Source of the DNA: a virus
Direction: 5' to 3' (one strand)
Length of the DNA stretch: 64,000 nucleotides
Virus record (IMG/VR): IMGVR_UViG_3300021962_000021
Location: 1-64,000 of that record
In this document: positions 31,918-60,570 of the stretch, in pieces
Position numbering within the stretch: position 1 is the stretch's first letter
Layout of the letters: the number at the start of each line of letters is the position of its first letter
The notes under the pieces: generated by a model
Told to the model about the DNA's origin: nothing
What the model saw: the letters and a program-made list of their open reading frames with translations, nothing else
The model's database searches: none
Translations under genes and position numbers: made by a program

Positions 31918-32711
31918 TGAAATACACAATAGTAGGTTGTATAACAAAATATGGAGTAGATGATATCAAACCATATGTTGAGTCGATTAAACAAAGTGGA
32001 TTCAATGGTGATAAGATAATGTTGGTTTATGATGTTTCTGGAGAAGTATTAGATTACTTAATGGAAAATGATTGGTTAATTGCACAGGGACAATTACAAG
32101 AACATATCATTCTACAAAGATTTAGAGATATGTATGCACTTTTACACGCATCGAGAACGGATGTAATAATTTGGACTGATGTGAAAGATGTTATATTTCA
32201 AAAAGACCCAACGGAATGGTTGAATAAATGGATGAGACGAGATATACTTGCATTTAGTGAATGTGTTAGATTAAAAGATGACCCATGGGCTTGTGTAAAT
32301 AGTGGAACAACATTTCCAATGGAATGGGAATATGGAATAAAAGAAGAAATCAGCTATTGTGCAGGAACTATTGTTGGTAAAAGAGAAGCAATGAGAGATT
32401 TGTTTATTGACATTTATAGATGGAGTAAAACAACTGCAAACCCAGAACAACTTTCTGACCAAGCTGCATATAATGTTTTATTGAGATTAGACCATTATAA
32501 ACATAGTGTAGAGTTTGTAGAACAAGAAAGAGGATTTGCAACACAATTAGGAACGGTTTGGATAAATAAAGATAAGTTTTCATTAACCGAACCAACACCA
32601 ATGTTTAAAGATGGTAAATTCTACAATCAAAAAGGTGATGAATTTACAATAGTTCATCAATACGATAGAGACCCACAAATTAAAAAAGAAATTTATGAAA
32701 GGTATAATTAG
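31917..32711 (+). CDS. nucleotide-diphospho-sugar transferase-like protein
   Basis: A 264-residue protein with IIWTDVKDVIFQKDPTEWL (about 84-102), a DxxD-type metal site that defines a GT-A-like family, and SYCAGTIVGKREAM, then SDQAAYNVLL, for acceptor binding. Similar proteins are found in plant and bacterial glycan pathways. It overlaps the following gene by 17 bases. The target is unknown. Confidence 0.65.
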   Translation: MKYTIVGCITKYGVDDIKPYVESIKQSGFNGDKIMLVYDVSGEVLDYLMENDWLIAQGQLQEHIILQRFRDMYALLHASRTDVIIWTDVKDVIFQKDPTEWLNKWMRRDILAFSECVRLKDDPWACVNSGTTFPMEWEYGIKEEISYCAGTIVGKREAMRDLFIDIYRWSKTTANPEQLSDQAAYNVLLRLDHYKHSVEFVEQERGFATQLGTVWINKDKFSLTEPTPMFKDGKFYNQKGDEFTIVHQYDRDPQIKKEIYERYN

Positions 32712-33585
32712 TATATTTGCACTTCCACAAGAATTGGAAGATTTGGCATTAACATTGGAAAGATTAAAAAGAAATTCGGCTTACATAGATAAATCCGTAG
32801 AATACAAAATAGATTTAACACTATCTTTATCGGATGAATTAACCGATTGGGAAAATTCTAAATTACCGAAAGAGTATTTTAGAGATAGAGCAACGGAATT
32901 GTGTGATAAGTATTTAGATTGGGGTGAATATGTATTGAGATTTGATAACAACTCAACAATATTAGGATGTGTTTCTCAAAGAAGAATGAGCTTGAAAAAC
33001 TATTCAGATGCCGATTTTTTTATTTGGTTAGATACGGATATTGTATTTAAAGATACTACATTATATTACATAACATCCGCATATCAAATGATAAAGAGTT
33101 CTGGAATGGATATGTTTATAGTGACTCCACAATTTGTAAAACAATGGGATAATACTTGGGACATAATTACTAATAAAAATTATTGGAATAAACCAATTAA
33201 TTATCATTTAGAATGCGACATATATCAAGAAGGATTACCACAATTAGAAGAAGTGGAAATCACACAAATAAATCAATTAAAATTTGCCGGTGGTTGGTTT
33301 ACATTAATATCAAAACCTTTATTGGATAGAATTGGTATACCCGAATCATTTGGACACTATGGATTGGAAGATACATTTGTTATGGCATGTGGTATGGTTA
33401 TGGCGCAAAACGGAGAAAATGTAGGTCAATTTGTAATGGAAAATTTAATTGTAGGTGAAAATCATAAGAACAGACCAAATCAATCTATAAAACAATATTT
33501 ATCATTAAGGGATAGAAAAGATGAGTTTAAAAAAATAGCTCATTCAAATTGGGAATCGGAAATTAATAAATTTATTCAAAAATGA
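32695..33585 (+). CDS. GT2-like glycosyltransferase
   Basis: A 296-residue GT-A protein. FFIWLDTDIVFKDTTLYYI (about 104-122) contains the DxD site, and KFAGGWFTLISKPLL, with SFGHYGLEDTFVM, matches the acceptor-site part with the ED motif typical of GT2. It ends with a basic helix. It overlaps the next gene by 4 bases. Confidence 0.68.
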   Translation: MKGIISIFALPQELEDLALTLERLKRNSAYIDKSVEYKIDLTLSLSDELTDWENSKLPKEYFRDRATELCDKYLDWGEYVLRFDNNSTILGCVSQRRMSLKNYSDADFFIWLDTDIVFKDTTLYYITSAYQMIKSSGMDMFIVTPQFVKQWDNTWDIITNKNYWNKPINYHLECDIYQEGLPQLEEVEITQINQLKFAGGWFTLISKPLLDRIGIPESFGHYGLEDTFVMACGMVMAQNGENVGQFVMENLIVGENHKNRPNQSIKQYLSLRDRKDEFKKIAHSNWESEINKFIQK

Positions 33586-44648: not shown

Positions 44649-45482
44649 ATGCTACTTAAAAAAGGAGATAACAACGAGAACGTAAAATTAATGCAAGAGA
44701 AGTTAGGAATTTCTCCTGCAGTAACTAACTTTGGTCCAAAAACCGAAGCAGCAGTAAAAGAATTTCAAGCAAAGCACGGATTAACTGCCGATGGTATTGT
44801 TGGTGATAAAACGTGGGCGATGATTATGGGAGAGAATACTCCACCACCGCCACCACCTGCACCGATTGTACCTGTTGGTGGTTTGAAATTGGATGCATTA
44901 AAAGGACATGTTCCTGATGCAGTTATCCAAATGATTCCCGATACAGCGGCCAAATTCCAAATCAACACTCCATTAAGATTAGCACACTTCTTAGCACAAT
45001 GTGGACATGAAAGTGGTGGATTTAGAGTAACACAAGAGAATTTAAACTATTCAGCAAAAGGTTTGAATGGTATATTTAAGAAATATTTCCCAACTGAAGC
45101 TGCAGCAGCATCCTACGCTAGACAACCACAAAAGATTGCAAACAAAGTATATGCAAATCGTATGAGTAATGGTGATGAGGCTAGTGGGGATGGCTTTAAG
45201 TTTCGTGGTAGAGGATATATCCAATTAACAGGTAGAGCAAACTATACTGAATTTGGTAAAGCAATCGGAGAAGATATTGCAAATAACCCTGATATAGTTA
45301 GTGGAAAGCACGCATTATTATCGGCAGCATGGTTCTGGTCTAAAAATGGATTGAACAAAATGGCTGATGGTGGTGCAAGTGATGTAGTAGTAACATCTAT
45401 TACTAAGAGAGTAAATGGTGGAACTATTGGATTAGCAGACCGTATCAAACACTTTAAAGAATACTATCATTTATTAGCATAA
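44649..45482 (+). CDS. endolysin: peptidoglycan-binding domain + GH19 chitinase/lysozyme
   Basis: A 277-residue protein starting MLLKKGDNNENVKLMQEKLG. Residues 1-58 are a PG_binding_1 domain (GPKTEAAVKEFQAKHGLTADGIVG, then TWAMI). A Pro-rich linker (about 60-72) leads to a GH19 domain with AHFLAQCGHESGGF (catalytic Glu), GRGYIQLTGRANYTEF and a WFWSKNGLN segment. It should cut the host cell wall at lysis. No signal peptide is present, so export needs a holin. A terminator follows 4 bases after the stop. Confidence 0.9.
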   Translation: MLLKKGDNNENVKLMQEKLGISPAVTNFGPKTEAAVKEFQAKHGLTADGIVGDKTWAMIMGENTPPPPPPAPIVPVGGLKLDALKGHVPDAVIQMIPDTAAKFQINTPLRLAHFLAQCGHESGGFRVTQENLNYSAKGLNGIFKKYFPTEAAAASYARQPQKIANKVYANRMSNGDEASGDGFKFRGRGYIQLTGRANYTEFGKAIGEDIANNPDIVSGKHALLSAAWFWSKNGLNKMADGGASDVVVTSITKRVNGGTIGLADRIKHFKEYYHLLA

Positions 45483-45485
45483 AAG

Positions 45486-45511
45486 AAAGGGAGTTAAATA
45501 CTCCCTTTTTT
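45486..45511 (+). terminator. Rho-independent terminator after endolysin
   Basis: A nine-pair stem AAAGGGAGT / ACTCCCTTT with a five-base loop and a T-rich tail closes the endolysin transcript. Confidence 0.85.
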
Positions 45512-45512
45512 A

Positions 45513-45544
45513 TTTGGTTTATTCAAAAAATATTCTTATATTAG
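45513..45544 (+). promoter_or_regulatory. promoter of a small membrane protein gene
   Basis: TTTG (45513-45516), 20 bases and TATATTAG (45537-45544) stand immediately after the endolysin terminator and before the ATG at 45549. The very short or absent leader is unusual. Confidence 0.55.
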
Positions 45545-45548
45545 ATTT

Positions 45549-45725
45549 ATGGAAAAATTTAAAATATTATTAAACATTTTATTAGTTACTTGTATTGTTG
45601 GATTGGCGATATCATATGTAACACAATTAATAAACTTACCATTTAAACTGAATTTTTTAGAAGCAGTTGGGGTTTATTGTTTGTGGACACCTATACACCA
45701 TACTTTTACTAGAAAAGAAAACTAA
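45549..45725 (+). CDS. small two-helix membrane protein, holin candidate
   Basis: A 58-residue protein. KILLNILLVTCIVGLAISYV (about 5-24) is a strong membrane segment, and FLEAVGVYCLWTPIHH (about 38-53) a second, weaker one, with a short basic C-terminus (TRKEN). The size, topology and position next to endolysin fit a small holin or pinholin, but a better-supported holin-like gene lies at 52.2 kb. It is too short for routine ORF calling and has its own promoter. Confidence 0.5.
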   Translation: MEKFKILLNILLVTCIVGLAISYVTQLINLPFKLNFLEAVGVYCLWTPIHHTFTRKEN

Positions 45726-45780
45726 CTTTAATCATAGGTTTTGGTTATAATCTTATATTTATGTAAGAGAATAACCATTT

Positions 45781-46434
45781 ATGAGACAAAAAGTAACAGC
45801 ACTGGCATTAGGCCTTAAGGAAAGAGCTATATATTTTATACTAGCTCCATTTTTAGCATTCATTGGACTTGCGTTTTTATTCCAAGTCTTTTTTGTAATC
45901 CTTCAATTTAGTGGAAATGAAAATCTTGCAACAGATATTGCAAATGAAATTTCATGGAGAATTGATGGAACATTTAAAAATTCACCAGAAAACATTTGGT
46001 ATAACGCAGATGAACACATTTGGGTTGAAAGTGTAGAAAACAAAGTAAAGATTGGTAAATTGGCGGGAAACCGTAATTTGGAATTTGGTGTTAAGAATGT
46101 ATTAGAAGAATATTTACAGGATAAAAATTATAATTTATCTCCTGATGCTACGCAAAAACTTAAAGTAGAAATTGTATATTTAGATGTCTTAACTACAAAG
46201 ACAAACATTTCAGTATTTCATAAAGGGGAAGAAGAAGTTGTTATCAGAATGAAGGGTATCCTTTATAAAGATGGCAAAAAAGAAAAAGAGGTAATGGTTG
46301 AAGAATCATCATCAGAAATTTCCATGTCTACACTTATTGTTGACCAGGGTGGTAAATTCAATCAAACTTCGTTATCAAACGCACTTAAAAAAGCAGCAGA
46401 TAAACTAATAACAAAACTTTTTGAAAAAAAATAA
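45781..46434 (+). CDS. inner-membrane-anchored protein of unknown function
   Basis: A 217-residue protein with a hydrophobic N-terminal segment (about 17-42, ERAIYFILAPFLAFIGLAF) and a soluble domain of mixed alpha/beta character that contains ISWRIDGTFKNSPENIWYN and a long ENKVKIGKLAGN strand pattern. It may be the start of the exported-protein module. I recognise no family. It lacks a cleavage-type signal, so an anchored topology is more likely than secretion. Confidence 0.5.
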   Translation: MRQKVTALALGLKERAIYFILAPFLAFIGLAFLFQVFFVILQFSGNENLATDIANEISWRIDGTFKNSPENIWYNADEHIWVESVENKVKIGKLAGNRNLEFGVKNVLEEYLQDKNYNLSPDATQKLKVEIVYLDVLTTKTNISVFHKGEEEVVIRMKGILYKDGKKEKEVMVEESSSEISMSTLIVDQGGKFNQTSLSNALKKAADKLITKLFEKK

Positions 46435-58679: not shown

Positions 58680-58711
58680 TTTGGCGATTTCAAAAATTCT
58701 TCGTATATTTG
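58680..58711 (+). promoter_or_regulatory. tmRNA promoter
   Basis: TTTG (58680-58683), 20 bases and TATATTTG (58704-58711), the best match in the window to the Bacteroidota consensus TAnnTTTG. A boxA-like motif TTAGTTCTTTAAAA follows at 58736-58749, just before the tmRNA. Confidence 0.75.
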
Positions 58712-58735: not shown

Positions 58736-58749
58736 TTAGTTCTTTAAAA
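58736..58749 (+). promoter_or_regulatory. boxA-like antitermination motif, copy 1
   Basis: TTAGTTCTTTAAAA resembles the boxA RNA of rRNA operons (E. coli TGCTCTTTAACA), which binds NusB-NusE and prevents early termination. It lies between the promoter and the tmRNA 5' end. Copies occur at 59296 and 59681. Confidence 0.5.
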
Positions 58750-58752
58750 TAT

Positions 58753-59124
58753 GGGGATGTTTGGTATTGATTGCCATGCGAATGATAATATCACAAGTAG
58801 AGAAATGATACTATCTCTTAATATCGTATCGAAACAATAAATGACGAAAAGTCAACAATGACTTACGATGACCTTATGGCATTCGTAGGTATGGATTACG
58901 CTGTAGCAGCCTAATCCTACTCGGGTCGGAATACATATAACCTAGGAACAGAAGTATCTATAAAGGTGGAAAATTGACTGAACCCAAAATCGAGTCAAAA
59001 CATTGATTATGATAAAATGTAAAAACTCATATATTTGTCAGTTGTGAATAACTGAATAAACTTGTGAGACGTTGGTATTATGATTACTCGGTAAGACACG
59101 GGTTCGACTCCCGTCATCTCCACA
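58753..59124 (+). ncRNA. ssrA: transfer-messenger RNA (ribosome rescue)
   Basis: About 372 bases. The 5' end GGGGATG pairs with CATCTCC (59115-59121) as acceptor stem. The T-arm is ACGGG-TTCGACT-CCCGT. TCACAAGT (58791-58798) pairs with ACTTGTGA (59060-59067) as helix P2, extended by ATAATA/TATTAT. Inside is a tag frame beginning near 58840 (NDEKSTMTY) and ending MDYAVAA at a TAA at 58912-58914. Tags ending in A-L/V-A-A are recognised by ClpXP. CCA is not encoded (ACA follows). The tag, about 24 codons, is longer than the typical 10. The resume codon is uncertain (probably just before 58840). Confidence 0.92.
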
Positions 59125-59145
59125 AAAACGCTAATATGTAAAGTA

Positions 59146-59321: not shown

Positions 59322-59394
59322 CGTGGGGTAGTAGCAGCGGTAGCTCGTTAGGCTCATAACCTAAAGGTCGGTGGTTCGAATCCATCCCCCGCAA
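59322..59394 (+). tRNA. initiator tRNA-fMet (CAT)
   Basis: Anticodon CAT at 59355-59357. The acceptor stem CGTGGGG / CCCCGCA has the C1-A72 mismatch that marks bacterial initiator tRNAs for formylation, and the D-arm region (GCAGCGGTAGCTCGT) and anticodon loop CTCATAA match E. coli fMet closely. The three G-C pairs of the anticodon stem are reduced to two here (TTAGG/CCTAA). Discriminator A; CCA not encoded. Confidence 0.93.
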
Positions 59395-59631: not shown

Positions 59632-60570
59632 ATTGGGGTTGTAAATATTCTTACTAATGTAAGTTGTAAAGATTCCCCGATTAGTTCTTTAAAAGATTGA
59701 AAATATTTTACATAGTAGGCTCGTCCTACATAGTAAACAACCGCCGCCTATGGTGGTTAAATAAACTACGAAAGTAGGATAAAGTGAGAATGCTTGGTTT
59801 AGTATTCTTGCGGCATCAGCAATGGTGCTTGAGTAGGCAAGTGGGATATCATCTGAGCCTTGTACGAAAGGGTAACACTATATCGGAAGGGTTTGGGTGA
59901 CTGGGGATATGTAGAATCTCTAGTTGAGTTCGGAAGAACAATAAGAATAACCCATAGAATATCAGTAAGAAGTATGTGGCTAATCACTATATATCATTGC
60001 GGTATTCAATTTCAAAGTGGTCTTAAAACCAAGCTATCCGAAAGGACGTAAGGTATGTTAATGTACAAGTGGTGTTGTTATTAACCTTTAATGTGGGACA
60101 CCAATCCCTATTAATGAAGATGACTTAAAAAATGGTGTTGACGATAACACATTGGGTAGTTTAGTATTCTCTCGTTCAAAAGATGGGGGAGCTGGTTGGC
60201 AAGCCACTACCTGAACAATCTACAAACCAAACTCAAATTTGCTTTAGGTGCAAACTATAAATCAATTTTAAGCTTAAGTGCTTGCCAGTTACGGACGAAA
60301 GGTGTCTACATAGTAATGGGTTGTCCATTGCCACGATACCACCGCAAGTGGTCTGTGATTCTTACGAAAAGTTTCTAGTTCCGCAAGAATGAATTTGCTC
60401 GGCAGGGTAGAAGAAATAGAGTAATGAGAGAGTAGTCAGTAACTCAATGAGTGGTTAGCATTACTAACCGACACTGAACGGATACATCTCAAAAGGGTGT
60501 GGATAAGAAAGGAAAAAAATAATCTTTCTAAAGGACGTTCTTCCCAAATGTGTAATCTCAGCATTTTATA
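59632..60570 (+). ncRNA. giant structured non-coding RNA (GOLLD/ROOL-like candidate)
   Basis: About 940 bases with no gene-like frame but dense hairpins. Examples: AACCGCC/GGTGGTT (59739-59758), CTAC-GAAA-GTAG (59766-59777), AGAATGC/GTATTCT (59787-59808), GTTC-GGAA-GAAC (59928-59939), TGGTGT/ACACCA (60070-60103), GTGTT/AACAC (60135-60150), AATGG/CCATT (60315-60329), ACCAC/GTGGT (60338-60352), GGTTAG/CTAACC (60453-60469). Several loops are GNRA. It has a promoter and a boxA-like motif, and leads into tRNA-Gly. Position beside phage tRNAs and size recall GOLLD and ROOL RNAs, but I cannot confirm family membership. Confidence 0.72.
59681..59694 (+). promoter_or_regulatory. boxA-like motif, copy 3
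   Basis: TTAGTTCTTTAAAA, identical to copy 1, in the leader of the giant RNA. A GGGG...CCCC-closed leader stem (59635-59678) precedes it. Confidence 0.5.

Follow-up and report, generated by a model that had tools for sequence, protein, structure and literature searches.

A T4-like jumbo phage was found to carry a complete one-piece tmRNA gene whose tag joins a C-terminal end of the ClpXP type to a conserved internal module. The RNA fold is upheld by covariation, the tag is maintained by selection at the peptide level, and the tag architecture was found in phages and in no cellular tmRNA sought. We consider it probable that the gene gives a functional phage tmRNA, and that a protease or adaptor most likely reads the internal module as a second recognition element.

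In the window, the 64,000-nucleotide stretch of viral DNA that was analysed, ARAGORN called a one-piece tmRNA gene (ssrA) with the tag DEKSTMTYDDLMAFVGMDYAVAA*, and the Rfam covariance model RF00023 gave a full-length match at 58753-59125 (77.5 bits, E 2.3e-28, against a gathering score of 47 bits). An earlier note on this DNA had proposed a phage tmRNA with acceptor stem, T-arm, P2 helix and tag frame all present, and had named ARAGORN and RF00023 as ways to check it. Both scans were positive, the covariance model did not fail, and all four parts were located (Table 1). The acceptor stem (GGGGATG/CATCTCC) carries a G3.U70 pair, the mark of alanine acceptors, and all seven pairs of the P2 core are formed. 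The CCA end is not encoded in the gene (CTCCA-C-AA), so that CCA addition by the host would be needed. RF00023 also aligns the region in which several pseudoknots (PK1-PK4) are expected. The part following the tag, where pseudoknots would lie, varies more than any other in the family and looks mosaic.

Table 1. Features of the tmRNA gene and its upstream region (window coordinates)
Feature	Position	Strand	Basis or remark
Bacteroidota-type promoter-like TTTG...TATATTTG	58680..58711	+	−7 region repeated exactly before tRNA-Met
boxA-like leader GTTCTTTAAAATAT, abutting RNA 5' end	58739..58752	+	recurs before many homologous tmRNAs
One-piece tmRNA gene (ssrA)	58753..59123	+	ARAGORN; RF00023
Acceptor stem 5' strand GGGGATG, G3 = 58755	58753..58759	+	paired, with covariation, in 38 relatives
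P2 helix core 5' strand CACAAGT	58792..58798	+	covariation
Tag frame DEKSTMTYDDLMAFVGMDYAVAA + stop, resume codon GAC	58843..58914	+	ARAGORN; register kept in relatives
Conserved internal module STMTYDDLMAFVGM	58852..58893	+	family comparison, codon selection
C-terminal degron-like DYAVAA	58894..58911	+	family comparison, codon selection
P2 helix core 3' strand ACTTGTG	59060..59066	+	covariation
T arm ACGGG-TTCGACT-CCCGT	59098..59114	+	stem alignment
Acceptor stem 3' strand CATCTCC, U70 = 59119; discriminator A = 59122	59115..59121	+	stem alignment

A promoter-like sequence (TTTG-N-TATATTTG, of the TTTG-TAnnTTTG type) sits 40 bases upstream of the tmRNA; −33/−7 promoters of the type TTTG/TAnnTTTG are typical of Bacteroidota. 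Among 50 distinct homologous tmRNAs, 12 were preceded by the strict motif. Across the whole window the motif was not enriched (11 found versus 7.05 expected), so that it counts as evidence only by its position before stable RNAs, by being repeated exactly and by recurring in relatives. The boxA-like leader, GTTCTTTA, occurs at 58739-58752 and again ahead of the tRNA-Met at 59322. Such leaders before stable RNAs of the phage suggest that a host-style antitermination may operate on them.

The stems were analysed in 38 aligned relatives; the P2 core was scored in the 22 that matched a simple motif, the P2 of VEL-type tags being left out of scoring. None of the 38 had an unpaired position in the acceptor or T stem, although compensatory changes were numerous, and neither G3.U70 nor A73 varied in any of them. 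The P2 core was paired in 22 of 22, with covarying forms (CACAAGT/ACTTGTG, CACACGT/ACGTGTG and CACATGC/GCATGTG). Because ARAGORN itself demands paired stems, it is the covariation, and not the pairing, that provides independent evidence. Nearly all aligned relatives kept the register of the resume codon (AATAA-NN-codon).

The tag is 23 residues long, about twice the usual length, and ends in YAVAA. The earlier estimate of about 24 codons was therefore correct (23 residues plus the stop), and the tag is unusually long as had been claimed, the commonest bacterial tag length being 10 aa in a tmRNA database of 97,179 sequences (PMC11915505). The earlier note had also contrasted the YAVAA end with ALAA. 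The end is itself ALAA-like and ClpXP-compatible, so it alone is not the unusual part, and the oddity lies in the conserved internal module.

When viral DNA was searched with the degenerate pattern STMT[FY]xDxMA, at least 119 stretches matched. Among these, the tag architecture seen in the window, D/A-E/V-x-STMT[FY]xDxMAFVGA-(D)YA[VLI]AA with 23-26 residues, was present at no fewer than 99 viral loci (at least 52 distinct sequences), examples being DEMSTMTFDDLMAFVGADYAVAA, DVELSTMTFEDAMAFVGADYAVAA and ADVELSTMTFGDAMAWMESFDYAVAA; the C-terminal variants included YAVAA, YALAA, YAIAA, LAVAA, EATFA, EYAYAA and VLMAA. This number of distinct sequences with the peptide, together with paired stems that covary, excludes chance. 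Because most members were fetched by a pattern within the tag, codons 1-10 owe part of their conservation to data selection. A scan of viral contigs for the conserved tmRNA 3' end made no use of the tag; it yielded a number of phages whose long tag is nearly identical, and recovered family members L015, L016, L085, L113 and L115. A diverged tag outside the degenerate pattern, STWNFEDAMAFVGAYDYAVAA (L059), was recovered with a profile, independently of the tag pattern.

In 84,980 genomes of bacteria and archaea the same DNA pattern matched 16 times, never within a tmRNA; all 16 matches were ordinary protein sequence or unrelated DNA. That the module stays nearly invariant in dozens of related viruses, and turned up in none of the bacterial genomes searched, indicates that it is probably a functional signal. 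A tblastn search of 50,697 phage records with the tag gave no match, a weak negative given the insensitivity of a 23-aa query, and a PDB sequence search with the tag likewise gave none, the core being like no solved structure. Further candidates were rejected. The N-termini of phage GroES (TMTYEDAMA) were found only through the pattern match, among several unrelated protein hits. The best likeness to proteins of the same phage, DELSTMTYAD in a 462-aa protein (G000, L342:1708-3093), scored 39 against 37 for the next and is thus at about chance level. An amphipathic helix in the tag core was not indicated, its hydrophobic moment not exceeding that of shuffles.

Tag lengths in the one-piece sample of phage tmRNAs ranged from 8 to 31 aa, and long tags such as ADEEYRDLLAEAEQIFNNADAYVPEEALLAA and G(E/N/K)TFAK...VVAA were seen in other phages. 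Long tags unrelated to the family (21-31 aa) occurred at L004, L026, L041 and L042, at L012, L040, L092 and L099, and at L117. Extended tags may accordingly be more widespread among phages.

The tag evolves as a protein, under purifying selection. For 41 distinct 20-codon tag bodies, pN/pS was 0.20 overall, compared with 1.08 in a column-shuffled control, and 0 of 200 shuffles were as low as the observed value. The segment FVGAD, which lies outside the search pattern, gave 0.12, whereas the last five codons gave 0.46, so that the internal module is under stricter conservation than the usual degron part. Heterozygosity of the insert's DNA was 0.34 in the third phase versus 0.11 and 0.06 in the others. 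These values bear on the alternative of a plain ClpXP degron that happens to be long, its extra residues being a neutral spacer inherited in one phage clade. Every tag does retain a hydrophobic, mostly Ala-Ala end, and the wide range of tag lengths in the one-piece sample would agree with a spacer. The insert, however, is under purifying selection, stricter than that on the degron end, and its DNA changes mainly at third positions; we regard a neutral spacer as rather unlikely.

A role other than rapid degradation, in which the tag delays ClpXP or serves localisation or binding useful to the phage, seems more improbable still. It would accommodate a C-terminus that is looser (DEATFA, DLAVAA, DEYAYAA and GEVLMAA also occur) beside a strict module, but all the variants end in hydrophobic residues and alanine and so are degron-like. 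Conservation of the module as RNA, for tmRNA structure or spacing, could be imagined because the tag lies within a structured RNA, with frame and downstream pseudoknots in one molecule. It is largely refuted and very improbable, as the changes fall at synonymous sites, and tag lengths vary by whole codons (23-26 aa) with the frame kept. That the phage acquired a fragment of a host ssrA gene, or that the gene is a remnant without function, is refuted by the covariation and selection: phages are described as picking up ssrA pieces at integration sites (PMC9004378), but this tmRNA is full length, covaries and has its own promoter-like site, and its tag was in no cellular tmRNA among the genomes searched.

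The virus record comprises 238,219 bases and encodes the Gp23 capsid, the Gp20 portal and a tail sheath; 15 tRNAs and a GOLLD RNA accompany the tmRNA. The GOLLD RNA (RF02032, 278.6 bits) is at 60152-60564 (+), 1 kb downstream of the tmRNA. Of 11 related viral-contig records that were searched, 7 also had GOLLD; one record of this set, G010, has no tmRNA. The host is likely a member of Bacteroidota. This link, made earlier, holds by the promoter type, the near absence of Shine-Dalgarno sequences (a similar site precedes 1 of 41 genes) and the kinship of capsid and portal. Gp23 and portal were closest to those of Microcystis phage Mel-JY01. An uncultured huge phage and Flavobacterium phage immuto came second and, among isolates, Rhodothermus phage RM378 followed; immuto is the nearest by capsid and portal among phages with a clear host. 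The recorded host of Mel-JY01, a cyanobacterium, is at odds with the other host evidence. In Mel-JY01, the closest GenBank relative, ARAGORN found no tmRNA and RF00023 gave a T-arm fragment only, and no tmRNA was found with RF00023 in immuto or RM378.

No SmpB, ClpP or Lon was found in the window's 238-kb record, which may be incomplete, and Lon_C had no match in 15 phage records. A phage-owned SmpB was found only in one relative, a 294-kb record with Gp23 and the same tag core as the window (G002, IMGVR_UViG_3300044568_003163, 45458-45868 (-)). There a complete 147-aa SmpB is encoded about 4.8 kb from the long-tag tmRNA; a ClpP reading in this relative contains an internal stop. Two further relatives have ClpP-like genes (G009 32436-32939 (-); G013 81397-81900 (+)) on the same strand as the tmRNA and some 3.6-3.8 kb upstream of it, with tRNAs in between. 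The S, H and D motifs of these genes are visible by eye, and they score better against head-maturation protease families than against ATP-dependent ones. The SmpB and the two ClpP-like genes agree with a second recognition element in the tag without proving it. The possibility raised in the earlier note, that tagged proteins are directed to another protease, is a reasonable hypothesis in that selection on the tag acts at the protein level and its core is tighter than its end; neither ClpP nor Lon was found in the record itself.

Bacteroidota possess ClpXP, and their canonical tmRNA tags are of about 9 aa and of the type G-E-x-N-Y-A-L-A-A. The phage tag is like these in its acidic start and YA[LV]AA end, and unlike them in the roughly 14 additional conserved residues that separate the two. 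Like the phage tags (23-26 aa), extended ssrA tags of Mollicutes exceed 20 residues and have a normal-type end plus an upstream extension, which in Mollicutes is read by a protease; that of Mesoplasma florum, AANKNEENTNEVPTFMLNAGQANYAFA, is degraded by Lon (PMC9097571, PMC8138137). Apart from this end, the phage tag does not resemble the M. florum tag in sequence (P from 0.15 to 1.0 in a shuffle test), so the likeness is one of design. It also differs from the Lon-read tags in that the 15 phage records are without Lon and the likely Bacteroidota hosts have ClpXP. By analogy with the Lon-degraded Mycoplasma tag, the module probably adds or changes a protease or adaptor contact.

Published accounts describe phage tmRNAs in mycobacteriophages Bxz1, Cali and Wildcat, Bacillus phage G, methylophage Melnitz and huge phages (PMC4131195, PMC9004378, PMC7162821), with tmRNA in about 2% of phages in an earlier survey (PMC9004378) and with both tmRNA and SmpB encoded in huge phages (PMC7162821). 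What the present gene shares with those is a complete tmRNA gene carried by a lytic phage, in many cases in the company of tRNAs and usually without a phage SmpB (PMC4131195, PMC9004378). It differs in its long tag with an internal module conserved clade-wide, a feature not described in the portions available. In the papers searched we found no description of a conserved internal module common to a whole phage clade. Phage tmRNAs are thus known, but a conserved extended-tag family appears to be undescribed.

Two huge phages have, besides a full-length tmRNA, a short RNA of 112 or 137 nt that scores above the tmRNA cut-off (L350:1501-1612, LR756508.1 414804-414915; L351:1501-1637, LR756511.1 2250-2386). 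These RNAs retain the tRNA-like domain with G3.U70, almost without an mRNA-like part, and resemble the TLD-only RNA of mycobacteriophage DS6A, which is reported to inhibit host tmRNA (PMC4131195). The full-length tmRNA at LR756508.1 92434-92880 (L348) has an apparent long tag, ...NNADYESAGFTAEDFAQMDGESLYHGSERKPAAV, in a frame missed by ARAGORN.

On the favoured reading, the tmRNA would be transcribed from its own promoter, trimmed and given its CCA by host enzymes, and charged with alanine by host AlaRS through G3.U70. Host EF-Tu and SmpB would then deliver it wherever a cut or truncated mRNA has stalled a ribosome, and translation from the GAC resume codon would add Ala and DEKSTMTYDDLMAFVGMDYAVAA; the intact tRNA-like domain and G3.U70 are compatible with ribosome rescue being kept working, as the earlier note had suggested. 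The tag added would have two parts: a C-terminal (D)YA[VLI]AA of a type that ClpXP can read, and an internal module of about 14 residues, STMT[FY]xDxMAFVGA, which is absent from canonical tags and kept by peptide selection. The module could be recognised by a host protease or adaptor, or by one that the phage supplies, and may alter the removal rate or the choice of protease for rescued products during infection. A broader proposal, which we offer only tentatively from the sequences, is that a clade of T4-like phages of Bacteroidota re-programs the rescue tag. The module would then act as an address for a partner dedicated to it, whether a host AAA+ adaptor or a factor of the phage, products of stalled ribosomes would leave by a route other than that of the host tag, and some members would bring their own SmpB or ClpP-like protease.

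tmRNA tags are usually viewed as short C-terminal degrons that depend above all on their last residues, whereas in this phage clade an internal module of the tag is under stricter conservation than the degron end. It would thereby offer a natural, testable case of a virus altering the fate of ribosome-rescue products, and the tag is a candidate degron sequence for Bacteroidota, in which few degrons have been characterised.
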